Source: Anaerolineae bacterium (GTDB lineage Bacteria; Chloroflexota; Anaerolineae; UBA4142; SHND01). From it: a stretch of 64,000 bases of DNA. Positions 3,035 through 30,188 of the stretch are shown here, piece by piece. The notes below the pieces were generated by a model. It did no database searches. It worked only from the letters and a program-made list of their open reading frames with translations, and was not told where the DNA came from. The stretch lies in NCBI GenBank assembly GCA_021463195.1, contig JAJTXZ010000019.1, forward strand, positions 1-64,000, written 5' to 3'. Position 1 is the stretch's first letter, and every line of letters starts with the position of its first letter. The translations under genes and the position numbers were made by a program.

Positions 3035-5778
3035 CGAATTTGGATTCCCGCGTCGAGCGTTACGGCATTATTTGAAATCGGCGTTTGATTCGCGTCCAGC
3101 AGCGGCACGCGCGCGCCGCTCGCTTCGTCATACATTCCAACGAACAGGCGATAATCGCCGGGCGCGAGATCATTCGGTAATTGCAACGTGTATTCGTCCG
3201 TGATGTATTCGTCGGGAAACCAACGATTCGTCGGCAGCGCGCCGTTTTGCGGTATCGAATCGCGCTGCGCGCGGAGAACGCCGTTCGCGTCCACCAAATG
3301 CGCAAACACTTTATAACTCGCGTTCGGCGTTTGATTCGCGCGCCAATATAAGGTCAGCGGAATCGTTTCGCCCGCGCGATATTGATTGCGGTCTAGTTTG
3401 TAACCGAGCAGTTGCAGTGAATCGCCAACGAGCGTGAGTTGAGAATGTTGAATGGTCGGCGCGCTAAATTGGCGCTGCGATTCGCCGAGCGACATACGCA
3501 TTTCGGGCAGCGGCTGTCCATTGTATGATATCTCAAAGGTGATATACCCCGCCGGCGCGGTGGGCGGCAGAGTGAGCGTATGCCGCGCGCGCGCGCTTTG
3601 CGCGGGGTTGAACGCGTCTTGCGCGGCAAACAACGCGCCGTGATACAACCGCGTTTCCGCACCGCGCGCGTCGCGGAGTTTGATTTCCAAAACGCCGTCG
3701 CCGCGTGTCAAGCCCTGCCACCATGTCGAAAACTCTATTACGTCGCCGCCGCGCGGTTCAATATTGTCCACGCCGTAACCCAAAAATTTCGCGCCATCCA
3801 AATCCACCTCCAGCGGACGCGGAATACGCAGCACATCCGAACGCGCGGCTTGCTCTGACGCGCGAACATGCAACGGCAGCGTAACGCGCGCGGCGTCGCC
3901 GACCAACGTTTGCGGCTCTTGCGAATCGCGCGCCCAAGCGTCAAGTTCGAGCGTATATTTCCCCGGCGGCGCGTCGGGCGGAATGAAAATACCTTGCGGA
4001 TCGCGGAACGCGTCATCCGCGCGCGTCGGCGCGCGTCCGCCGAACGGCAAAGTTTCTTGCCGCATCCACACGCGTTCCGTCGCGTCGCGCAGCGTCCACT
4101 CTAACCGAATATTTTCCAACGGCGCGTCGGGCGCCCAATTCAAAATCGCCGCGACAAATTCACCCGCTATCGGCGTATCCAAATAATTCACCGCGCGCAA
4201 TTCATCCGCCGCGCCATATTGCGCCAACGCGAACCGCCGCGTCGCATTGCGCAAACTCGCGCGCCACAACGACGCGACCGGCGTCAGGTCCAAGCGCGCA
4301 AAATCAAGCGTTTCGGTATCGGCGGGATGTCGCGTCAAATAAATCGCCGCGCCTTTTTGCAAAGCCGCGCGCGCGCGCGCGGCGACATCGCTCTGCGAAA
4401 CCAGCTTGAGCTGGTCGCGATAAATCACAATCTTGTCGCGCCGCAAATCGCGCCTTGTGTCGTCCACCGCTTGATAATATTCAAGCGGCGTCAAATCTTC
4501 CCAGGGGCCCAACAGCGTCGCGTTCGGTTCGAGCGGCAGCGCGAGAATTTCTTGCCAACGCGTATCGGCGGCGTCGTTCTGGCTTTGGTCAGTGCGCGCG
4601 AAATTCGTCCACGTCAAAAACGCGACGACGCACGCGGCGCCTAGCAGCAGCGCGCCCGCCAAACCGCGCGACAGCTTGCGCGCGCCCCACCGCGCCTGAA
4701 TCGTATCGCACAACACCGCCAAGCCAATGCCGACCAAAAATAAAAAAGTGAGATACGACGGAATAAAAAAGATTTCGCTGTCCACCACCCAAAAGACCAG
4801 CGCAAAGGCGGTCTCGGCGAGATGCGCGAGCAGCAGCAAAACGAGCAACTGTCGCGGCGGCAGCGAGTCGGGAAAACCGCGCGGCGCGCGTTTCCACGCG
4901 AGCGCGCCTAATCCAAACAGCCCCAGCGCGAAACCGACAACGGTGAATTGTTCGACCAGCAGCGTCAGATAAACTTGGGTAAACCGTTCCCACAGGAAAC
5001 CGGGCGGACCAAATCGCAGCCAGACGGACGCGTTCGACGCGAGAATCATGTCCGCGAAATTGATCGCATGATATTCCACGCCCACAGAGCTATCGCCGCG
5101 CAGCGGAATATACAAATACAACAGCAGCGGCGTTAACAGCGCGACAAGATTCTTGCCGATTTCGCGCGGCTGCCAGAGCGAACGCCCCCCCCCCCACAAC
5201 ACAAAGACCGCCAACGCGGGCGCGAACCAAAGCATCGTGCGATGATGCGTCAGCGAAAATCCGAACGCGAGCGCGACCCACCACAACGGCGCGCGTCCCA
5301 TTCGCCACAGCATCGCCAGCCACAACACGAGGACGATGAAAAAGGAATTGAGCGTATAGACATCGGGAATCACCGCTTGCGACCATTGCACACGCGAGAC
5401 GCCAAACAAGCTCGCCGTAAGCAAGGCGACCGCGCGCCGCGGCGTCACGGTCCGCATTAGCGCGTAAATCAAAACCAACGTCGACGCGCCAAACAGGCCC
5501 GAAAAAACATTCGCGCGATACGCCACCGTGCCCACCGGCATCGCCAGCAGCCACAGTTTCGCCAGTAAAAAATAGAGCGGATAGCCCGTATGGCTCACGC
5601 CGAGGGTATAGATATTGGTTTGAAACTCGCCATAATCCGCGTCCAAAACGCCGGGCGCGGCGGTGAGCGCATAGAGCGTAAAGAACGCGAAAAACAGCCC
5701 CAGCGCCGCCAACGCATCCCAATTCACGCGCAGGGTGTGCAACGTTTCGTCAAATGTGTTTGTGACGCGCTGCGTCAT
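3031..5778 (-). CDS. DUF2723/TMEM260-like membrane O-mannosyltransferase-type protein
   Basis: This protein has 915 residues. The N-terminal membrane half carries DADYGEFQ (46-53) and SHTGYPLY (62-69), the signature layout of the DUF2723 family. That family is related to TMEM260, a GT-C protein O-mannosyltransferase. About ten hydrophobic helices run to about residue 390. The remaining ~500 residues are extracytoplasmic and contain several beta-sandwich modules ending in YRLFVGMYDEASGARV, shared with the downstream gene. The start overlaps the previous gene by ATGA, and the end overlaps the next gene the same way. An 11-G tract (5185-5195) encodes the Gly run in LWGGGRS; a slip there would truncate the protein. 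Likely role: transfer of sugar to a secreted protein or polymer. The family call is good; the substrate is unknown. Confidence 0.8.
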   Translation of the reverse strand: MTQRVTNTFDETLHTLRVNWDALAALGLFFAFFTLYALTAAPGVLDADYGEFQTNIYTLGVSHTGYPLYFLLAKLWLLAMPVGTVAYRANVFSGLFGASTLVLIYALMRTVTPRRAVALLTASLFGVSRVQWSQAVIPDVYTLNSFFIVLVLWLAMLWRMGRAPLWWVALAFGFSLTHHRTMLWFAPALAVFVLWGGGRSLWQPREIGKNLVALLTPLLLYLYIPLRGDSSVGVEYHAINFADMILASNASVWLRFGPPGFLWERFTQVYLTLLVEQFTVVGFALGLFGLGALAWKRAPRGFPDSLPPRQLLVLLLLAHLAETAFALVFWVVDSEIFFIPSYLTFLFLVGIGLAVLCDTIQARWGARKLSRGLAGALLLGAACVVAFLTWTNFARTDQSQNDAADTRWQEILALPLEPNATLLGPWEDLTPLEYYQAVDDTRRDLRRDKIVIYRDQLKLVSQSDVAARARAALQKGAAIYLTRHPADTETLDFARLDLTPVASLWRASLRNATRRFALAQYGAADELRAVNYLDTPIAGEFVAAILNWAPDAPLENIRLEWTLRDATERVWMRQETLPFGGRAPTRADDAFRDPQGIFIPPDAPPGKYTLELDAWARDSQEPQTLVGDAARVTLPLHVRASEQAARSDVLRIPRPLEVDLDGAKFLGYGVDNIEPRGGDVIEFSTWWQGLTRGDGVLEIKLRDARGAETRLYHGALFAAQDAFNPAQSARARHTLTLPPTAPAGYITFEISYNGQPLPEMRMSLGESQRQFSAPTIQHSQLTLVGDSLQLLGYKLDRNQYRAGETIPLTLYWRANQTPNASYKVFAHLVDANGVLRAQRDSIPQNGALPTNRWFPDEYITDEYTLQLPNDLAPGDYRLFVGMYDEASGARVPLLDANQTPISNNAVTLDAGIQIR

Positions 5779-8445: not shown

Positions 8446-11295
8446 ATGTCCGAAACGCAACTCTTGTTAATTGACGCGCACGCGTTGATTCATCGCAGTT
8501 ATCACGCGATCGAACGCGACCTCACGTCGCCGTCGGGCGAACCGACTAAAGCGGTGTACGGTTTTGCGTCCACCCTTTTAAAGGTCATCAAAGAACGCCA
8601 GCCGCAGTACGTGATTGCGACTTTTGACGCGGGCAAGAGTTTCCGCGCTGAGCGATTCGCGGCGTACAAAGCGAATCGTCCGCCGACGCCCGATGATTTG
8701 AAATCGCAATTCGCGCGCTGTCAAGAATTTTGCCGCGCCTTGAACATTCCCGTATTCGTCGAGTCGGGTTACGAAGCCGATGATTTGATTGGCACGCTGT
8801 CCAAACAAGCGCAAGTCGAAAATCTCGACACGCTTATTTTGACTGGCGACCGCGACACGCTGCAGTTGGTAGACGGCAAAACGAATGTGTTGATGATTAT
8901 CGGTCAGACCGGCGAACTCAAACTGTATGACGCGGCGGCGGTGGTCGAACGCTTTGGCTTTGCGCCCGCGCAACTGATTGATTTCAAAGCGCTGCGCGGC
9001 GACGCGTCGGACAATATTCCCGGCGTCGCAGGCGTCGGCGACAAGACCGCGACAAAATTGATTCAGGCGTACGAAAACGTCGAGGGCATTTACGCGCATT
9101 TGAACGCCGTCGAAGGCAAAATGCGCGACAAACTCGCGGACGCGCGCGCGCAGGTTGAATTAAATAAACAGCTGGTGACGATTGACCGCGCGGCGCCGGT
9201 GACGCTCGATGTGAACGCGGCGCGCTTTGGCGCATACGACCGCGCGCAGGCGGTGGAACTGGCGCGCGAATTGGGCTTTCAATCTTTGCTCCCGCGCTTG
9301 CCCGGCGCCGACGGCGCGACCGACGCGAGCGCCGCGCCTGTCGCGCCGTCGGACTATGCCATACAATACGCCGCCGTCATTTCGGACGCCGACCTCGACG
9401 CGTTGGTGGAACGAATCAAAAAAAACAAGGCGTTCGTGGTGGACGTCGAGACGACCGATATTGACCCGCAGCGCGCGGATCTGGTCGGCATCGCGATCGG
9501 CGTAGGGGGGGGGGAAGCGTATTATATTCCGGTGGCGTATGATGCGCCGCGCAGCGCGCCCGCCGCGCCCAAAACCAAAGCGCTCAAAGAACAAAAGCAG
9601 GCATCCCTTTTTGATACCAATGCGCCGACGCTTCCAATCGCCAGCGCCGACGCGCATCCGTTCGCGAAATTGCCGCTCGAACGCGTGCGCGCGAAAATGG
9701 CTGGCGTTTTCGCGGACCCGCATATCGAAAAATACGCGCACAACGCGAGTTACGATTGGGGCACGCTGCGCCGCGCCGGATTTGAAATCCGCGATTTCGC
9801 GTTCGACACAATGATTGCGGCGCATTTGTTGGAAAACAATCCGCAAGCGATCGGTTTGAAAAATTTGGCGTTTCAACATTTTGGCGCGCAAATGACCGAG
9901 ATTCAAGCGCTCATCGGCAAAGGCAAAAATCAAATTACGATGGCGCAGGTGAGCGTTGACAAAATCACGCAATACGCGTCCGCCGACGCCGATTACACGT
10001 ATCGCTTGTTTGAAAAATACAAACCGCTTTTGAGCGAACGCGGTCTCGCCAAATTATTTTATGAAATTGAAATGCCGCTCGTCGCGGTGATTGTGGATTT
10101 GGAAGCGGCGGGCGTCCTGCTAGATTTGGCGGCGCTGCATGAATTGTCGCGCGAGATTGCGGCGCGTCTCGACGCAATCGAAAAGCAAGTCTATGCGCTG
10201 GTCGGCGCGCCCTTTAATCTCAATTCACCCATGCAGCTCTCGGAAGCGTTATTTGAAAAATTGGGCTTGTCGTCGCAAGGTTTGGAACGCACCAGCACGG
10301 GCAAAATTTCGACGGCGGCGGGCGCGCTGGAAACGTTGCGCGATAAACATCCGGTGATCCCATTGATTTTGGAACACCGCGAATTATCCAAACTGCGCGG
10401 CACGTATGCCGATGCGCTGCCGCAGCTGGTGAATCCGACGGACGGCCGCGTGCATACGAGTTTCAATCAAGCGGGCGCGGTGACCGGGCGTTTGTCGTCG
10501 TCCAATCCAAATCTACAAAATATTCCGGCGCGCACCGAATTGGGTCGCCGCGTGCGCCGCGCGTTTATCGCGCCGCCGGGCAGCGTATTGGTCTCGGCGG
10601 ATTATTCCCAAGTCGAATTACGCATCCTCGCGCACGTTTCGCAAGACCCGAATTTGCTGCAGGCCTTCGCGCATGGCGAAGATATTCACGCCAGCACCGC
10701 CGCGACCTTGTTCAATGTGCCGCTCGCTGAGGTCACGCCGCAAATGCGCCGCTTGGGCAAAACGATCAATTTTGGCGTCGTATACGGCATCAGCGATTGG
10801 GGCGTCGCGGGACGCACCGAACTTTCGTTAGAGGACTCGCGCAAACTAATCAACGATTATTACGCGCGCTATCCGCGCGTCCGCGAATATTTGGAACGCA
10901 CCAAAGCGTTGGCGCGCGAACAGGGCTATGTCGAATCGCTCTTGGGGCGGCGGCGTTATTTTCCAGAGCTCGCGTCGGGACGCAAATTGATGCCCGCGCA
11001 AAAAAATCAAGCCGAACGCGAAGCCATCAACATGCCGATTCAAGCGACGGCGGCGGACATTATCAAAATCGCGATGACGCATTTGCATAGCGCGTTGCTC
11101 AAGCGAAAATTTCCGGGCAAAATGATTTTACAAGTGCATGACGAATTGGTGTTTGAATGTCCGCAAGAACTGGTGAATGAATTTGTTCCGCTCGTGCGCC
11201 GCATCATGGCGGACGCGTATCCTCTGGACGCGCCGCTCCAAGTCGAAGTCAAAGTCGGCGCGAATTGGGATGAAATGAGCAAGGCGCGCATATGA
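8446..11295 (+). CDS. polA: DNA polymerase I
   Basis: This 949-residue protein is a full-length family A DNA polymerase, used for Okazaki fragment maturation and repair synthesis. The N-terminal 5'-3' exonuclease (1-290) shows LLIDAHALIHRSYHA, GYEADDLIG and GDASDNIPGV. The 3'-5' exonuclease domain keeps its catalytic residues: DVETTD (about 331), HNASYDW (about 431) and YASADADY (about 510), so proofreading should be active. The polymerase domain has DYSQVELR (about 719), RRLGKTINFGVVYG (about 768) and QVHDEL (about 896). Phe in NFG predicts discrimination against dideoxynucleotides. A 30-residue insertion (APKTKALKEQKQASLF) sits in the exonuclease domain. A 10-G tract (9505-9514) encodes a Gly run. 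The next gene overlaps the stop by 4 bp. Confidence 0.97.
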   Translation: MSETQLLLIDAHALIHRSYHAIERDLTSPSGEPTKAVYGFASTLLKVIKERQPQYVIATFDAGKSFRAERFAAYKANRPPTPDDLKSQFARCQEFCRALNIPVFVESGYEADDLIGTLSKQAQVENLDTLILTGDRDTLQLVDGKTNVLMIIGQTGELKLYDAAAVVERFGFAPAQLIDFKALRGDASDNIPGVAGVGDKTATKLIQAYENVEGIYAHLNAVEGKMRDKLADARAQVELNKQLVTIDRAAPVTLDVNAARFGAYDRAQAVELARELGFQSLLPRLPGADGATDASAAPVAPSDYAIQYAAVISDADLDALVERIKKNKAFVVDVETTDIDPQRADLVGIAIGVGGGEAYYIPVAYDAPRSAPAAPKTKALKEQKQASLFDTNAPTLPIASADAHPFAKLPLERVRAKMAGVFADPHIEKYAHNASYDWGTLRRAGFEIRDFAFDTMIAAHLLENNPQAIGLKNLAFQHFGAQMTEIQALIGKGKNQITMAQVSVDKITQYASADADYTYRLFEKYKPLLSERGLAKLFYEIEMPLVAVIVDLEAAGVLLDLAALHELSREIAARLDAIEKQVYALVGAPFNLNSPMQLSEALFEKLGLSSQGLERTSTGKISTAAGALETLRDKHPVIPLILEHRELSKLRGTYADALPQLVNPTDGRVHTSFNQAGAVTGRLSSSNPNLQNIPARTELGRRVRRAFIAPPGSVLVSADYSQVELRILAHVSQDPNLLQAFAHGEDIHASTAATLFNVPLAEVTPQMRRLGKTINFGVVYGISDWGVAGRTELSLEDSRKLINDYYARYPRVREYLERTKALAREQGYVESLLGRRRYFPELASGRKLMPAQKNQAEREAINMPIQATAADIIKIAMTHLHSALLKRKFPGKMILQVHDELVFECPQELVNEFVPLVRRIMADAYPLDAPLQVEVKVGANWDEMSKARI

Positions 11296-12053
11296 ATCTT
11301 TTTTCATTGACCGATCTTGAGAGTCTGAGCGACGCGAACGCGGCAGACCCCGCGTATGATTCGGCGCGTCAGCACGCGCGCAATCAACTGGCGTGGCTGC
11401 ACGAACGCATCTATGGCGAAATCCGCGCGCGCCGCTGGGATATTCATTTTAGACCCGAATGGTCTCTGACTTGGGCGCGCCGTTCAGAGGCGCAGCCGCG
11501 CGTCAGCGCTTTGCGTTTGCGTTATACCAAAGCCGAATACGTGCTCCATCTGCTGCAAAAACAATTTGGCGGTCCGCCGTTGACGTGGGACGATTGCGCG
11601 TGGTTGGGCATTGGCTTGGATGGACAGGGACTTGTAGTCGAATGGAATATTCCCGCCAACGCGAAATTCGACGCGCAAAATTTTCACAACAAACTGACTT
11701 GGGGCGCGCCGGAAAAACGCACCCTCCGCCAAATCCTTGCCGAATTGGGCGGCGAAGGCGCGTTGACGCTGTACGCACAAGCGCAGCCGATACTCCAGGT
11801 GCGCTGCGCGCGTTTGGTGGACTTGAACGTCTTGAATACAACGTTGGAAAAATTCACGCCGGGCCGCCATACGTGGAATATCGCAATGCGCTTGGCGGTG
11901 ACCGACGCGCGCTTGACGCCGAACGGCGCGCCGGATGAATTGTTGTATCGGCTCGCGCAGTTGTATGCGCTGCATCAATTTGCCGCGTGGTCGCCGCGCA
12001 ATAATTTTCTCGACCGCGCGCGCGGCGAATCCACCTCCGGAGCCGTAACGTGA
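11292..12053 (+). CDS. Hypothetical protein coupled to polA
   Basis: This 253-residue soluble protein is one I cannot assign to a family. Its ATG overlaps the polA stop (ATGA), so the two are probably translationally coupled. Visible features are an N-terminal helical part (ARNQLAWLHERIYGEIRARRWDIHF), a central segment with RLRYTKAEYVLHLLQKQFG and WLGIGLDGQGLVVEWNIP, and a helical C-terminus (LLYRLAQLYALHQFAAW). There are no Cys/His clusters, P-loop or membrane segments. The WLHERIYGEIRARRWDIHFRPEW stretch with many Arg and Trp suggests a nucleic-acid-associated role, but this is only inference from composition and linkage. Confidence 0.7.
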   Translation: MNLFSLTDLESLSDANAADPAYDSARQHARNQLAWLHERIYGEIRARRWDIHFRPEWSLTWARRSEAQPRVSALRLRYTKAEYVLHLLQKQFGGPPLTWDDCAWLGIGLDGQGLVVEWNIPANAKFDAQNFHNKLTWGAPEKRTLRQILAELGGEGALTLYAQAQPILQVRCARLVDLNVLNTTLEKFTPGRHTWNIAMRLAVTDARLTPNGAPDELLYRLAQLYALHQFAAWSPRNNFLDRARGESTSGAVT

Positions 12054-23777: not shown

Positions 23778-24491
23778 CTATGGCGCCGCGTGTTCCAAAC
23801 GTTCAAGCAGCGCGGGCAATTCCGCGAGACGCTCGATTTTGTAATAGCGCGGCTGTTCGTCCGGCGGGGGCGCGGCGTATTCGTGCTGCCAAGTGATTTC
23901 GTATGGCACATAGACCGCGTGGCCACCGATTTCCAAGACGGGCAAAATATCCGACTTGAGTGAATTGCCAACCATGAGCAAACGCTGCGGCGCGAGGCGC
24001 TGTTCGTTCAGGACGTGTTCGTAGCTCGCGCGATTTTTGTGGCTGACAATTTCGATACGTTGAAAATATTGTCCCAAGCCGGAACGATTGATTTTAGTTT
24101 CCTGATCAAGCAAATCGCCTTTGGTGATGACCATCAAGGGATATCGCTCGGCAAGGCGCGGAATCGTTTCGGCGACCGTGTTGAGCAAAGCCACTTCGGC
24201 GGTCAGCATCGCTTTGGCGGTATCAATCAAGATTTGAATATCGCGCCCCGTGATGCGGCCTTCGGTCAATTCGACGGCGGTCTCGATCATCGAAAGCGCG
24301 AACGCTTTGATACCGTAACCGAAATGAATAATATTATGCGCTTCGGTTTCGTCCAAGCGCGCTTGGACCCATTCGGCGCTGTGATAACGCGCGAGCAGCT
24401 GCGTAAAGCGCGCTTGGGCGTCCACATACAAGCGTTCGGTGTGCCACAAGGTATCGTCCGCGTCGAACGCAATCATATCAAAACGTGACAT
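23778..24491 (-). CDS. HAD-superfamily hydrolase
   Basis: This 237-residue phosphatase-like protein has all HAD motifs: motif I FDADDTLW with nucleophile Asp10 and acid/base Asp12, motif II MVITKGD, motif III lysine in VSHKN, and motif IV MVGNSLKSD. A helical cap lies between motifs I and II (about 20-95). This fits a small-molecule phosphatase of the haloacid dehalogenase superfamily; the substrate is unknown. The gene lies just beyond an attC-like site (24507-24626) but has no such site after it, so it looks like resident chromosome rather than part of the cassette island. Confidence 0.85.
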   Translation of the reverse strand: MSRFDMIAFDADDTLWHTERLYVDAQARFTQLLARYHSAEWVQARLDETEAHNIIHFGYGIKAFALSMIETAVELTEGRITGRDIQILIDTAKAMLTAEVALLNTVAETIPRLAERYPLMVITKGDLLDQETKINRSGLGQYFQRIEIVSHKNRASYEHVLNEQRLAPQRLLMVGNSLKSDILPVLEIGGHAVYVPYEITWQHEYAAPPPDEQPRYYKIERLAELPALLERLEHAAP

Positions 24492-24506: not shown

Positions 24507-24626
24507 GATTAACAAATCGCAGGTGGACGAGCGTAGACAATGCTTGGACGCAGGAAAATGTTTGGGCAAAGAAAATGCTTCTCAATGCCGCCCAAACTCC
24601 GCTGTCCGCCGCACGCTTTGTTGGGC
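24507..24626 (-). other. attC-like recombination site A (integron cassette type)
   Basis: Read on the minus strand it starts GCCCAAC (matches RYYYAAC) and ends GTTAATC (6 of 7 to GTTRRRY), 120 bp in all. The inner arms pair imperfectly: GGCGGACAGCGGAG near the start with CTACGCTCGTCCACC near the end, leaving an unpaired base as attC sites do. It begins 6 nt after the stop of the DUF3267 gene, the usual cassette position. It is clearly homologous to site B at 25296-25424 (shared AACAAAGC, CCAAGCATT and GCATT blocks). Confidence 0.65.
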
Positions 24627-24632
24627 GCGTTT

Positions 24633-25244
24633 TCACTTGATGCTGTCTTCACCTTGCGGAAGGAAAACCCGAATGCCGTCTTGTTCATCAATAATATAAG
24701 CATGTTCGGGATAACGAAGCGCAACAGCAGTTAGCCACAAATCGCCGATCGCTGCGCTACCGTTGATTGTTGCCCAAATTGCCCACAACCAAACGTTAGA
24801 TGTGCCTGCTTGCATCAGAATGCCAAGACATGCCAAAATGCTTAAACTCACCAGCGGCGCCAGGCTGATTACAAGGTATTGATTGCGCGAGAATGCATAG
24901 CCGGGGGCAGTAGCATAAAACATCAATCTCTTCCAAATAGCCCCGTATTTCGGTTGTGCGCCAAAAATCCGCATCGCTACTCCATGGGCCAACTCGTGCG
25001 CTACAACGACTAACAGTATACCGACGAGAAAAATCGCCGGTTGCGTTGAATCTATTGATATGAGTTCAGGCGGCTTGCCAAACCCAAGCGCAAAAATAAA
25101 GAACATAATTCCAAAGGCAAAACCCAATGGCACTGACAATAAATTCATAACGACAATGCGACCAGTCTTGTCGCCAATCTTCCAGTAAAGCGCCTCTTTG
25201 TAATCAGATGGTGGTGTGCCCGAAATCGTTTTTGCGTTAGACAT
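24633..25244 (-). CDS. DUF3267-type membrane zincin metalloprotease-like protein
   Basis: This 203-residue protein has three or four membrane helices. The first cluster is 32-58, a second helix (70-90) contains HELAHG (His83, Glu84, His87), and further helices follow at about 125-165. HExxH inside a membrane helix is the feature of the DUF3267 family, related to site-2-protease-like zincins. The soluble C-terminus contains YPEHAYIIDEQDGIRVFLP. The gene is bracketed by two attC-like sites. It starts about 55 nt after site B and stops 6 nt before site A, exactly as a mobile integron cassette would be laid out. The substrate is unknown. Confidence 0.8.
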   Translation of the reverse strand: MSNAKTISGTPPSDYKEALYWKIGDKTGRIVVMNLLSVPLGFAFGIMFFIFALGFGKPPELISIDSTQPAIFLVGILLVVVAHELAHGVAMRIFGAQPKYGAIWKRLMFYATAPGYAFSRNQYLVISLAPLVSLSILACLGILMQAGTSNVWLWAIWATINGSAAIGDLWLTAVALRYPEHAYIIDEQDGIRVFLPQGEDSIK

Positions 25245-25295
25245 AGAAATGATTTTCGTTTTAAAAGGTTGATTTTCCGATTTACAACTTTATGC

Positions 25296-25424
25296 GCCCA
25301 ACGGTTTGCGTTACCTGCGTGTGGGCGGGCGTGAATAATGCTTGGGAGCAGAAAAAACTCGAAGCGAGGAAAATGCCCGAAAATGCCGCAGAATCCCACC
25401 CGTCAAGCGCATGCTTTGTTGGCT
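25296..25424 (-). other. attC-like recombination site B (integron cassette type)
   Basis: Read on the minus strand this 129-bp site starts AGCCAACAAAGC (6 of 7 to RYYYAAC) and ends CCGTTGGGC (GTTGGGC matches GTTRRRY exactly). The inner arms GGGTGGG and CCCGCCC can pair. It begins 24 nt after the methyltransferase stop. Compared with site A, the outer boxes and several internal blocks are conserved while the centre differs, as expected for attC sites. Confidence 0.65.
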
Positions 25425-25447
25425 GGCGTGCTGTTGTGCAAGTCGCA

Positions 25448-26716
25448 TTATTTACGAGTAGAGCGATTGTCTGCTTTTTTAACTTTAGAGCGGTAATTAA
25501 TTTTCTGCTCTTTAATTGCTTTAATTGAATTGCGTCGCATAACAACAATATATTCTTGAGTCATTGTGTCGTCAAGAATTCCAGTCGCATTCGTAGGGCT
25601 ATTTCTTGAAGGCATACGCTTGTTGGGAATAGAGCGCATAAAAGTATTTACATATTCAAAACCGTAATTTCCAAAAAAATCTTTTACTGCAATATCCGTA
25701 GGTAGAACTACACCTTTTACTTTTCTGTTTCCAACTACATAACAAGCATATCCATTTTGCTTTATTACTTTTGCGACATTTGAGATTGACGTATGTAAAT
25801 CAACGTAAAAGGACACAACTTCACGAGCGCGTTTCTCATCAGATTTCTTTATATTTTCAATAGCATTATTAAGTGCTTCACTGGGAAATGATGAAACTTC
25901 TTTGACGGTTTTCCCGCCCATTAACTTGCGGTCAATTTTATCTGGCTCTTCAAGTTCAAGCCACGCCGCAGATAAACGAGAATATTGACCATAAGCAACA
26001 GTTGTGCCTGAATCCCCATAAGGGGGAGAAGTCACGACAATATCAATGCTTTCAGGAGAAATACAACTTTCGGGTATTCCTTCAACTGTGTTGAAATCGA
26101 AAATACTTGCTTTTGGATGATGTTTGAGATTATCAATAATGGCTTTATATTTTTTGTATCCGTCAAAATTTCTTTGTAGTTTTGAAGCCATTATTCCGTA
26201 AACATCGGGGTTGAATTTTGCTAACTTATCCTCGTCATACCTATATAACTTAAATTCTGCATTTCGAGTGTTGGAACTATCTCGAACTGTTTCACTAAAT
26301 GCAACTTGGAAAAATAAACGAATTTCTTCATCTTCTATATTTTGAATAAACTTTCGCAGTCGGAATAATTTCTCGATAACTTCTGGCTTGAACCAAAAAT
26401 CTAAACGAGCAATACCGTAAACTTGCGGCGTTTCTTTAAGTTTACGTAGTTTATCTTCCAAAGCCGTTTTATTGAAAACAGATATTTGCTTTTCAAGTAG
26501 TGCGATTTTTGGCGTTGTCGTTTTTGCCTGCGCTATAAGTCGCGCCAATGGATTAAGGTCAGTTCCAAAGGCATTAATTCCCCTAATGTTGGATTCTACT
26601 AAAGAAGTCCCGCTACCTGAATATGGGTCAAAAAGGAATTTTGCAGAAATGCCAAATAAATTTAATACTCGATGTTTAACTCTAAATTCTGTTTTGGATG
26701 TGGAAAATGCGGACAC
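25448..26716 (-). CDS. DNA methyltransferase with SPPY motif (N4-cytosine/N6-adenine type)
   Basis: This 422-residue amino-methyltransferase is the probable modification enzyme of the adjacent MvaI/BcnI-like nuclease. Motif I DPYSGSGT (30-37) binds AdoMet, followed by FGTDLNPLARL. Motif IV is VVTSPPYGDSGT, and the SPPY form is typical of N4-methylcytosine enzymes. The apparent start is GTG at 26716, very close to motif I. A stop lies 18 nt upstream, yet another frame is open for about 36 codons before it (26717-26826), so the natural N-terminus may be lost to a frameshift. The DNA is strongly AT-richer than the flanks, indicating transfer. The gene ends 24 nt before attC-like site B. Confidence 0.85.
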   Translation of the reverse strand: MSAFSTSKTEFRVKHRVLNLFGISAKFLFDPYSGSGTSLVESNIRGINAFGTDLNPLARLIAQAKTTTPKIALLEKQISVFNKTALEDKLRKLKETPQVYGIARLDFWFKPEVIEKLFRLRKFIQNIEDEEIRLFFQVAFSETVRDSSNTRNAEFKLYRYDEDKLAKFNPDVYGIMASKLQRNFDGYKKYKAIIDNLKHHPKASIFDFNTVEGIPESCISPESIDIVVTSPPYGDSGTTVAYGQYSRLSAAWLELEEPDKIDRKLMGGKTVKEVSSFPSEALNNAIENIKKSDEKRAREVVSFYVDLHTSISNVAKVIKQNGYACYVVGNRKVKGVVLPTDIAVKDFFGNYGFEYVNTFMRSIPNKRMPSRNSPTNATGILDDTMTQEYIVVMRRNSIKAIKEQKINYRSKVKKADNRSTRK

Positions 26717-26831
26717 TTCGCGTGCAGGTTCTTAACTCGTTTTTTTCTCGTAAAACGATACTTGTCAGCGTCCCGTGAAAGTAAAAATATGAGTTGCGTA
26801 TTAAACGAATCCGCGTAAATTGCAAGTCAAT

Positions 26832-27914
26832 CTAACCTAAAAAGACTTGCTCGCCATGCCACTCAAGGGCTATTTTTGAAGGCGAATAGTTAGAATTTAT
26901 TACAGAACGAATTTCTTTACCGTTATATTTCGTAATCTTTTGTATTGAAATATCTGTCCTTGTCTTTTGTAAGTATGAGGCGGTCACAACAGTCAAGTTC
27001 TCAGGTTTTATAGTAATAACTCCTTCATCGAAAGCCCAATGGCAATTTCCGCAAAGACAAATGCCGTTTCGTGGGTCATCAGACCCTTCACTGTGCTTTG
27101 GGATAATATGAGCAGCCTCTGCTAAATAAACGCCACGCGGAGTAGGTAATTTAATGCCACAGACCGCGCAATAATATTCGTATTGGGATGTGACAATCGC
27201 TCTAAAGGCACGGTCTCTAGCAAATGTTTTTCTAAGTGAATCAATCTTGTTTGTTGTTTCGAATGGTTTGAACTCGTCCAAAGCGAATTCTTGTAAGAGT
27301 TTCTCTTGCTCTTTGATTTCATGTTTTTGAATTGCGATAAGTTCGGGTGGGTGTTCAAGAACAAATAGCCAACCGCTTTCAGTTAATGAAAAAAGCCCAT
27401 TCTCAATTTTCATAAATTCCATTGTTCGCAACCAATCTATTCGATGACGAGATTGATTATTAAGAGTTTTTCGACTCCAGCCTTGCATTTTTGGGAATCT
27501 ATCCTTAACCAAATCATACCAAGCACCGATTAACTCGGTTGAGTTAATTTGTGGTTTTGACCGCAAAATTTCCAGAAACCCTGCGACACCCGCAAAAGAT
27601 TTCTCAAAAACTTCTAGCAACATAAATGGCGAAGAAGTTTCTAACACAACTTTTCCGTCAGTTGTTAAACAACATTTTTCATTTTTCACAGTAACCAAGC
27701 CACTACTGATAAATAGCACTGTGTATATATCTCTTGCGAAATAATGGCTCAATTGATATTTGGCGCGAAGCCATTCATAGACTTGTTTTGGAGTAGGTTT
27801 ATTTTCGTCAACCCACGATAGTGTATCTAGTAAATTTTGAAATTGTTTTTCAACACTCCCCACCATTGGGTAAAAAGTCATTTTTACTTTTGTTAAATCA
27901 GGGGACTTGCTCAT
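26832..27914 (-). CDS. HNH endonuclease-domain protein in the R-M locus
   Basis: This 360-residue protein has an N-terminal two-thirds of helical and winged-helix character (YEWLRAKYQLSHYFARDIYTVL, RHRIDWLRTMEFMKIENGLF). The C-terminal HNH domain has CAVCGIKLP, EAAHIIPKHSEGSDDPRNG and LCGNCHWAFDEG; two CxxC pairs hold zinc and His lies in the AHI strand. I place the start at ATG 27914, which overlaps the MvaI-like gene by ATGA and has GGAGAG upstream, rather than the 27926 ATG. It sits between the restriction and methylation genes and is translationally coupled to the former. It may be a second nuclease of the system or a helper. Its own specificity is unknown. Confidence 0.82.
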   Translation of the reverse strand: MSKSPDLTKVKMTFYPMVGSVEKQFQNLLDTLSWVDENKPTPKQVYEWLRAKYQLSHYFARDIYTVLFISSGLVTVKNEKCCLTTDGKVVLETSSPFMLLEVFEKSFAGVAGFLEILRSKPQINSTELIGAWYDLVKDRFPKMQGWSRKTLNNQSRHRIDWLRTMEFMKIENGLFSLTESGWLFVLEHPPELIAIQKHEIKEQEKLLQEFALDEFKPFETTNKIDSLRKTFARDRAFRAIVTSQYEYYCAVCGIKLPTPRGVYLAEAAHIIPKHSEGSDDPRNGICLCGNCHWAFDEGVITIKPENLTVVTASYLQKTRTDISIQKITKYNGKEIRSVINSNYSPSKIALEWHGEQVFLG

Positions 27915-28597
27915 AAGTCTCTCCATTCCTTAAATAACAAAATCAAATTGTCTTCTTTGACGGCAAAACTTGCTTCTTTTTCAGATGATTGTCGTGACAA
28001 TCTTATGTGAAAGAAAATATTGTCACTTAGAATTTGCCCGCTGATAATTTCTGCTGAAGTTCCTGTCAATAATTGCGCTCGGTCAAATTTGAGCCATTCA
28101 TGATCGCCCCGCATTTCACTAAACGCGCTTACTAATATTAACGCTGGAATTTTCTCTACAAATCTTTCCGCTAATGTTTGAAGTTGCCATTCCGCGACAA
28201 TTTCACCTGATATATGTCGAACTGATATTGTTTCGCTTTCCATGTGCAAAAATAACCCCGCGCTATTTGGCGTGCGGGACATGGTGAAATATAAACCAAG
28301 TCGTCCATCTTCATCTGGCGTGCCATATTTTTTTATGGCTTCAAGAGGTTTCATTTTCCACACTTTACGGTTAAATGTGAAAAGAGTAATCATCGAAGAT
28401 GAATTTATGCGATGCGCTTTGAGTTCAATTTCTCCTAAATCTGGCGAAGCAATATTATTTTCAGGCAAGCCGATTAATTTTTCTAAAGTGTGTCCAATTC
28501 CTGTTGCGCCTTTGCGTTCTGACTTGACCCAATTTTTTGCTTTTAATTTATTGAATGCTTTTATAAATTCACTCAAAGTCATTGTGTTTCTAGGCAT
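27911..28597 (-). CDS. MvaI/BcnI-family type II restriction endonuclease
   Basis: This 228-residue protein has the family signature GATGIGHTLEKLIGLPENN (30-48). The catalytic cluster is PDLGEIELK, with Asp53, Glu58 and Lys60 in D-x4-E-x-K spacing as in MvaI, followed by AHRINSSSMITLFT. Family members cut CCWGG (MvaI) or CCSGG (BcnI) as monomers. The target of this one cannot be read from sequence. It heads a three-gene minus-strand locus with an HNH protein and an SPPY methyltransferase. A possible ribosome-binding site is AGAAGG upstream of the ATG. A 12-bp inverted repeat with TATAAT on each arm lies 86-122 bp upstream and may be promoter or operator. Base composition is AT-rich. Confidence 0.88.
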   Translation of the reverse strand: MPRNTMTLSEFIKAFNKLKAKNWVKSERKGATGIGHTLEKLIGLPENNIASPDLGEIELKAHRINSSSMITLFTFNRKVWKMKPLEAIKKYGTPDEDGRLGLYFTMSRTPNSAGLFLHMESETISVRHISGEIVAEWQLQTLAERFVEKIPALILVSAFSEMRGDHEWLKFDRAQLLTGTSAEIISGQILSDNIFFHIRLSRQSSEKEASFAVKEDNLILLFKEWRDL

Positions 28598-28682
28598 GTA
28601 TTACCTTCTGCGGGATGGAATACCCCATTTTACCTTGTTTATTTCCTGCGAAGCCAGCCAACTATGGATTATATGACAATCT

Positions 28683-28719
28683 TGCCGTATAATCTCCTCT
28701 ATCAGTGGATTATACGGCA
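28683..28719. promoter_or_regulatory. Inverted repeat with paired TATAAT boxes upstream of the R-M genes
   Basis: The arms TGCCGTATAATC (28683-28694) and GATTATACGGCA (28708-28719) are perfect complements around a 13-nt spacer, with partly complementary flanks outside. Each arm contains TATAAT, and another TATAAT lies at about 28671-28676 on the minus strand. The position suggests an operator or divergent promoter controlling the restriction locus. No C-protein gene is visible. Confidence 0.45.
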
Positions 28720-28754
28720 TCGTGTCGCACAATTCTTTATCTACGTCATTCCAC

Positions 28755-28802: not shown

Positions 28803-30188
28803 TCAAAAATGCGTTGGCTCGCGTTTGATAAATTGTCCGCGTCCAATCGTCCCCACAAATTTTCCATCTTGGGCAGCAAGCTCGCCGCGCACCGTGACCG
28901 CGCTCGGGCGTCCCTTGATTTCCCAACCTTCGAACGCGCTGTAATCCACATTGATCAACTGCGTTTTCGCCGAAATCACGCCGCGATAATTCGGATCGTA
29001 CACCACCAAATCCGCGTCGCTGCCCAGCGCAATCGCGCCTTTGCGCGGAAACATGCCAAAAAGTTTCGCCGCTTGCGTGCTTGCCGCATCCACAAACGTA
29101 TTCAAATCAATGCGCCCCGTCGCGACGCCGTGCGTGTACAACAAATTCACGCGATCTTCTAAAGAAGGAATGCCGTTCGGAATTTTCGTGAAATCATCGC
29201 GGCCCATTTCCTTTTGGCCTTGAAAATCGAACGGCGCGTGGTCGGTGGCGACGGTCGCGACCCAGCGATTGCGTAACGCGTTCCAGAAAACATCCTGATT
29301 CTCTTTGGTCGGCAGCGGCGGCGACATGATAAATTTCGCTCCTTCAAAATTTGGCAGCTGCGTATAACTATCATCCAAGACGAGATATTGAATCAACGTC
29401 TCCATCTTGAGATTGACCCCGCGCGCGGCAGCCGCCATCCCCGTTTCAAACGCCTCGCGGCAGCTTGTATGCACTACGTAAACATGCGTGCCGTGCGCCT
29501 CCGCGAACGTGGCGAGATGATGCACCCCTTCCGCTTGCGTGCGCGGCGGGCGACTCCAATAATGCCATTCGGGTCCCGTCTTGCCTTCGCCCAACAATTT
29601 CTTTTGCATCTCGAAAACAAGTTCCGCGTTTTCGCAATGCGCGGTCACAATCACGCCCAAACGTTTCGCGAGCGCCATCGTTTGATACAACTCTTCATCC
29701 GAAATATTGAACGCGCCCTTATACGCCAAAAAGATTTTAAAACTGGCGACGCCCTGCTTGACGATTTCTTCAATCTGCGGCGCCGTCTCTTGGTCCAAAC
29801 GCGTAACCCCTTGATGAAAGGTGTAATCGCACGCGCTTTTGCCGTCCGCTTTGCCCTTCCACAATTCAAACCCGTCGCGCCACGGCTGCTCTGACGTAGC
29901 TTGACAAATCATTTCAATCAACGTTGTCGTGCCGCCCACGAGCGCGGCGCGGCTCGCCGTCTCGTACGTATCCTTGGCGTACGTGCCCATGAACGGCAGA
30001 TAGACATGCACATGCGGATCAATAAAACCGGGAAATACATATTTGCCTGTCGCGTCAATCACCGTCGCGTGCGGCGGCGCATCTAAATTTTTGCCAATGC
30101 GTGTAATCTGTTCATCCTCGCAATAAATGTCCGCCGTGTAATTTTCGCTCGCGGTGACAATATTGCCCTGCTTGATTAAAAGAGACAT
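28803..30188 (-). CDS. hydA: Dihydropyrimidinase (hydantoinase)
   Basis: This 461-residue amidohydrolase opens dihydrouracil, dihydrothymine or hydantoin rings, the second step of reductive pyrimidine breakdown. The binuclear metal site is complete: DPHVHV (His59, His61), the carboxylated lysine in FKIFLAYKG (Lys151), AHCEN (His184), VVHTS (His240) and TDHAPF (Asp316). Length and order match D-hydantoinase/dihydropyrimidinase. Allantoinase and dihydroorotase are less likely, given the DPHVHVYLPFMGT substrate loop and the length. Further upstream on the same strand are an NMT1/THI5-type ABC transporter and an LLM-class oxidoreductase, which could supply and process the same kind of compound. 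No dihydropyrimidine dehydrogenase or beta-ureidopropionase is present in the window. Confidence 0.92.
   Translation of the reverse strand: MSLLIKQGNIVTASENYTADIYCEDEQITRIGKNLDAPPHATVIDATGKYVFPGFIDPHVHVYLPFMGTYAKDTYETASRAALVGGTTTLIEMICQATSEQPWRDGFELWKGKADGKSACDYTFHQGVTRLDQETAPQIEEIVKQGVASFKIFLAYKGAFNISDEELYQTMALAKRLGVIVTAHCENAELVFEMQKKLLGEGKTGPEWHYWSRPPRTQAEGVHHLATFAEAHGTHVYVVHTSCREAFETGMAAAARGVNLKMETLIQYLVLDDSYTQLPNFEGAKFIMSPPLPTKENQDVFWNALRNRWVATVATDHAPFDFQGQKEMGRDDFTKIPNGIPSLEDRVNLLYTHGVATGRIDLNTFVDAASTQAAKLFGMFPRKGAIALGSDADLVVYDPNYRGVISAKTQLINVDYSAFEGWEIKGRPSAVTVRGELAAQDGKFVGTIGRGQFIKREPTHF

Follow-up and report, generated by a model that had tools for sequence, protein, structure and literature searches.

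How gene cassettes come to stand in a chromosome with no integrase gene beside them is the question raised by a short region of a Chloroflexota (Anaerolineae-like) genome. Integrons are taught as one integrase, one attI site, and one cassette array. A preliminary description of the window (the whole stretch of 64,000 nucleotides analyzed here, part of contig C55) pointed to two attC-like repeats bracketing a DUF3267 gene. It proposed that this gene, and possibly the adjacent restriction locus, had been captured by integron recombination and formed a cluster of attC sites lacking an integrase (CALIN). We analyzed the window together with the rest of its genome (4.72 Mb, 143 contigs, 98% complete) and with five other genomes of the genus (G001–G005). 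The genome and its relatives are fragmented assemblies of many contigs each.

Two repeats in the window are attC sites

The two repeats, sites A and B, were present as described: 120 and 129 nt long, homologous, with the ends given for them, and each directly 3' of a stop codon. They can be aligned along their entire length. Site A begins with GCCCAAC and site B with AGCCAAC, both followed by AAAGC; the 3' ends are GTTAATC and GTTGGGC, respectively. About 9 nt are missing on the L'/R' side of site A, which is degenerate at its 3' side. Its GTTAATC has no complementarity to its own R'' box, which is what the final cassette of an array should show, and the trailing TTAATC is host sequence. The GTTGGGC (R') of site B is a property of the cassette that follows. 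Ends of the attC type, RYYYAAC (R'') and GTTRRRY (R'), together with pairing inner L boxes, were found at sites A and B.

The repeats had also been called palindromes, a claim that is weak when each is taken alone: folding of the single sites gave z values of -1.0 (A) and -0.5 (B), neither of them significant. An Rfam scan of the window returned tRNA only. Since both sites are unremarkable when folded singly, the case needed other evidence. The stem is nevertheless real, as seen from covariation over 11 sites of the genome. Ten relatives of sites A and B occur elsewhere in this genome, all within cassette arrays. Over the 11 sites, 91.7% of the stem cells are paired, seven pairs carry compensatory changes, and 16 cells are changed on both sides. 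None of 500 shuffles reached values as high (cells paired or covariation), and in slid controls pairing fell to 30–38%.

When the 4.72 Mb were searched with a covariance model, 11 full-length sites (E <= 3e-20), one site cut by the end of contig C128, and one doubtful site on C139 were obtained. The model had been trained on those 11 sites, so this result shows that there are few other sites and is not an independent test. With this model, neither of the observations named beforehand as speaking against attC sites (no model hit, or copies at many unrelated positions) was made. Three clear attC sites lie on C66 and at least three on C128. The C139 match is weak (41.8 bits, L168:7141-7266) and overlaps a coding frame; it was left out because no cassette start was found. 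We conclude that sites A and B are attC sites, the ends of integron cassettes.

The window array consists of two cassettes

In a free circular cassette, attC is made of R'' at the cassette end and R' at its start, and insertion splits it at G|TT. Each R'' should therefore pair with the bases that open its own cassette and not with the R' that stands after it. Site A has the R'' GCGCCCAAC, which complements without mismatch, over 9 nt, the R' GTTGGGCGC at the end of site B, where the cassette of site A starts. Site B has the R'' GCCAGCCAAC, complementary without mismatch, over 10 nt, to GTTGGCTGGC at position 28662, upstream of the MvaI/BcnI-like gene. Footprints of at least 9 nt were found for 11 of the 12 strong attC sites of the genome (1.7% for shuffled R'' ends), and footprints of at least 8 nt for 40 of 55 attC sites of the relatives. 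Folding gave -31.6 for the excised form of site A versus -20.0 for the placed form; the corresponding values for site B were -26.5 and -18.8.

These footprints fix the cassette limits (Table 1). The DUF3267 gene lies in a cassette that coincides with the unit proposed for it (25301–24513). The restriction locus, suspected earlier of belonging to the same array, does belong to it, as its start is complemented by the R'' of site B, and is itself a single 3360-bp cassette. With its restriction-modification operon, this single 3.4-kb cassette clearly exemplifies a defence system packaged for the integron route. The match of its methyltransferase to the best defence-library model begins at position 62, and the N terminus may be missing, frameshifted, or mis-started.

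Table 1. Positions of the cassettes, recombination sites, and genes of the window array and its flanks
Feature	Position	Strand	Remarks
Left flanking gene, hydantoinase/dihydropyrimidinase-like (name from sequence)	28803..30188	-	Stop 141 nt before crossover
Distal dyad of attI-like site (GAATTGTGCGACACGATGCCGTATAATCC)	28707..28735	-	Matches same position in intI-linked C13 attI (GAATTATGCGGCACGATGCCGTATAATCC)
Proximal dyad of attI-like site (GATTATACGGCAAGATTGTCATATAATC)	28667..28694	-	4 nt before crossover G|TT
Crossover triplet G|TT	28660..28662	-	G at 28662 belongs to attI-like site; TTGGCTGGC opens first cassette; GTTGGCTGGC is exact reverse complement of site B R'' end
First cassette, 3360 bp, three-gene restriction-modification operon and attC site B	25302..28661	-	R'/R'' footprint 10 nt
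MvaI/BcnI-family restriction endonuclease, first cassette	27911..28597	-	PF15515, E 8e-33
HNH endonuclease domain protein, first cassette	26832..27926	-	PF13391, E 2e-15
Type II DNA methyltransferase, first cassette	25448..26716	-	PDLC03322, E 6.5e-113 (model 62-443/446); PF01555
attC site B	25296..25424	-	129 nt; covariance model 140.9 bits
Second cassette, 789 bp, DUF3267 gene and attC site A	24513..25301	-	R'/R'' footprint 9 nt
DUF3267 putative zincin peptidase, second cassette	24633..25244	-	PF11667, E 4e-23
attC site A	24507..24626	-	120 nt, last of array; covariance model 82.9 bits
Right flanking gene, HAD-family hydrolase	23778..24491	-	PF00702

The array starts at an attI-like site

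A shared sequence stands at the array start in the window (C55) and on contigs C128, C66, and C13: an inverted repeat (GATTATACGGCA..TGCCGTATAATC), next CATA or TCTA, and last GTT. With at most one mismatch allowed, the pattern occurs at only these four places in 4.72 Mb, each right before a first cassette. The reversed pattern, used as a control, did not occur, and two further matches to the pattern itself appeared at three mismatches. On C13 the site lies beside an integrase gene, intI; the sites of C55, C66, and C128 are without one. The insertion point of the window array therefore shares sequence with an intI-adjacent site. Since the left flanking gene ends only 141 nt from the crossover, there is no room for an integrase between them.

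In type, the sites of C55, C66, and C128 are like the attI of C13 and unlike that of C56, where a second intI is found; the attI of C56 shares their build but has another core (ACGTCA..TGACG). A second inverted repeat lies ahead of the first in most sites, and the proximal dyad keeps its register with the G|TT crossover in most of 22 sites from nine genomes. The right half of the proximal repeat stands where the L box of attI would be, and the repeats may be integrase-binding boxes.

In G001, contig C231 (L154, about 5560-5660) carries an intact intI and an attI of the same inverted-repeat build, again with another core (ATGGAA..TTCCA), hinting that the integrase and the attI cores change together.

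Two integrase genes lie elsewhere in the genome

A search with TIGR02249 (cut-off 265) detected two full-length intI genes, on C13 (459.1 bits) and C56 (451.5 bits). The catalytic R-H-R-H-Y residues, read by eye, are present in both. The same search found nothing near this score level in the rest of the genome and no integron-integrase match on C55. Both genes adjoin cassettes with attC sites of the A/B family: on C13 the order is intI, a 156-aa gene, attC, and the contig end, and on C56 it is intI, a 212-aa gene, attC, a HicAB pair, and attC. Thus, the genome that harbors the window array does contain integron integrases. The earlier view of a CALIN without integrase holds locally, as C55 has at least two attC sites with no neighboring integrase, and no intI stands next to attI and array there as in a complete integron. 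It does not hold for the genome, which has two intI genes, and the attI-like site had been overlooked. Judged from its sequence, the window array is a CALIN anchored in a dispersed attI-like site.

Some features of the intI-linked arrays were seen in passing. About 41 nt are common to the ends of C13 and C103, and the two contigs appear to be contiguous. The R' box of the C13 attC is interrupted by an element whose ends, GAAACTGTCGAAAA / TTTTCGACAGTTTC, are inverted, so that one array is split (L039:9905-10000; L042, the C103 end); there is a probable GTT target duplication. A promoter-like sequence, TTGACA-N16-TATACT, lies beside the intI-linked attI sites, and also on contig C14 of G002, where intI is missing, and points into the array (L039 8990-9040, L040 about 11500-11535, L163 about 3460-3500). 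It is absent from the intI-less sites of C55, C66, and C128.

Same-place sites carry different cassettes in related species

The attI-like motif was counted 4, 2, 3, 1, and 1 times in the five other genomes of the genus. Nearly all copies stand directly before a cassette-like GTT start; the G005 copy does not. At a xanthine-dehydrogenase-like (XDH) locus, both C66 of our genome and G004 have a site 178 nt after the same gene. The spacer is gap-free, with 156 of 178 positions identical (88%), and the right junction (66 nt) is 98.5% identical. The arrays contain different cassettes, and blastn found only attC sequence in common. At the same place in G001 the two flanking genes overlap, with nothing between them. 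The kamA locus presents a similar picture: C128 and G002 both have a site 111 nt after the stop, with different cassette genes, and no site was found at this place in G001, G003, G004, and G005. Other members of the genus were without a site at these two loci.

For the window locus, a partial match was obtained on contig C127 of G001, where it is rearranged and the site lies further from the hydantoinase gene. No empty-site relative of this locus was found in the genus genomes. The HAD gene of G002 was rejected for such a comparison because it lies in another neighborhood, and the hydantoinase orthologues of G003 and G004 because other genes follow, with no attI.

The presence of intI itself differs between the genomes. 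At the murE locus, the order murE-intI-attI of C13 corresponds to murE-attI in G002, where intI is lacking and the leader resembles the intI promoter side. Contig C156 of G001 (L279, about 2030-2720) has a broken intI (middle deleted or frameshifted) and an attI (TATTATACGTCAAAATGACGCTTAATC) 6.4 kb from kamA. In G002, G003, and G004 (79, 95, and 97% complete) intI was not detectable, though arrays are present. A tblastn search revealed no convincing intI remnant beside the intI-less sites.

How an attI-like site without intI may have been filled

We consider it probable that the window contains a two-cassette integron array in an attI-like site without an adjacent integrase gene, with IntI acting in trans as the conjectural part of this explanation. 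The integrase encoded on C13, beside an attI of matching sequence type, would act in trans on several dispersed attI sites. Folded single-stranded attC cassettes would be inserted there by the usual attI x attC reaction and would supply exchangeable accessory genes, here a restriction-modification system. The intI-less sites themselves could have originated through intI loss from once complete integrons or through duplication of the attI region. To a broader proposal we would give even chances: a distributed integron, in which one or two integrase genes would serve dispersed attI sites in trans, each with its own exchangeable array, and in which attI sites would be gained and lost during the evolution of the genus.

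The murE locus, the broken intI of G001 near kamA, and the lack of any intI in G003 and G004 would fit arrays that are dead leftovers of former complete integrons, with no IntI acting on them in trans. We regard this alternative as possible though rather doubtful. The XDH site is intI-less in both our genome and G004 and has the same gap-free spacer, so by parsimony intI was gone before their split, yet the cassettes are completely different and changed later. The kamA locus repeats this pattern, and no convincing intI remnant was seen beside the sites. The cassettes at XDH would have been changed either by an IntI encoded elsewhere or by exchange of the whole array through its flanks; the match in attI type to C13 favors the former. 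At least some of the sites most likely originated as complete integrons that lost their intI, which is compatible with later action in trans. As G002, G003, and G004 have arrays with no detectable intI, those arrays may be static, at least today.

Whole-array replacement through homologous recombination in the flanks is another way in which species could have come to differ in their cassettes. We think it unlikely that this process, or the passage of arrays together with their flanks from one lineage to another, accounts for the turnover in place of IntI acting on the site. At XDH the right junction is more alike than the left spacer, and some exchange across that flank is therefore possible. 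The R''/R' footprints show that arrays were assembled cassette by cassette, but not when or where this happened.

Insertion of cassettes by IntI at non-specific attG sites is an established route (as cited in PMC12901181 and PMC12444791), and Cury et al. name off-target insertion as an origin of CALINs (via PMC8618304). For the window array this route is very improbable. It would make the shared upstream sequence a coincidence or a regulatory motif, but the dyad motif is confined to four array starts, one of them the attI beside intI, and is in register with the crossover in most sites of nine genomes. Both kinds of site receive cassettes away from intI, but attG targets vary in sequence across the genome and have no relation to attI or attC, whereas the sites described here share an inverted repeat with an intI-adjacent attI. 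Finally, that the repeats belong to some other dispersed palindromic family (e.g., MITEs or terminators), as their weak individual folding might suggest, can practically be dismissed given the copies beside two intI genes, the cassette footprints, and the near absence of copies outside arrays.

Relation to known integrons

Integrons in a Chloroflexota chromosome had been expected to be noteworthy, which is only partly so: the phylum is already listed among those with integrons (PMC8618304), and an integrase above the cut-off was present in 27 of 99 sampled genomes of the class. The sedentary chromosomal integrons of the present genome (intI-attI-attC; C13/C103 and C56) share the attC family and attI architecture with the window array, which differs from them in having no intI. 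CALINs are common, and off-target insertion, intI loss, and rearrangement are given as their possible origins (PMC8618304). Like them, the window array has cassette genes and two or more attC sites, and intI is located elsewhere in the genome and not in the vicinity. CALINs are, however, defined without reference to attI, whereas this array is anchored in an attI-like site common to an intI-linked array.

Two known cases come closer. The CALIN of the Shewanella prophage M16-3 possesses an attI (PMC9892861); this attI belongs to a known type and marks the CALIN start, and a complete integron lies nearby. That is one prophage case, whereas here there are several chromosomal sites, with their place conserved between species and their cassettes exchanged. 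Different Xanthomonas species have CALINs at matching chromosomal loci, with intI elsewhere, as at the loci described here; the accessible part of that account reports no attI, in contrast to the attI-like sites found here (PMC12444791). An earlier report of several conserved intI-less attI sites in one chromosome, with turnover, was not found in the openly licensed literature. Conserved attI sites of this kind at multiple loci, with cassette turnover, thus appear to be new.

Filling of several intI-less attI sites in trans would allow one cell to operate a number of cassette platforms, each with its own housekeeping gene as neighbor, and many CALINs might then be active arrays and not debris. 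The presence of attI-like sites at the first cassette would also offer a testable answer on CALIN origin.

Further observations on attI-like repeats and cassettes

Outside the genus, attI-like patterns found at two mismatches were set aside, as most are asymmetrical and look like background. Similar array-start repeats do occur in another family of the order, e.g., on contig C43 of G008, a genome in which no integron-integrase match scores higher than those of other recombinases. On contig C97 of G002 (L156, 2807-2833), a second, weaker attI-like repeat lies inside an array, between attC sites and before GTTGGCACACCCC. The attI on C156 of G001 adjoins a short gene and a MazF-like gene. A near-identical leader (GTTGGCACGCCCCTTGCAAAATT) opens several cassettes with differing genes (L040 about 10590-10610, L043 about 5790, and L156 about 2800, all on the minus strand).
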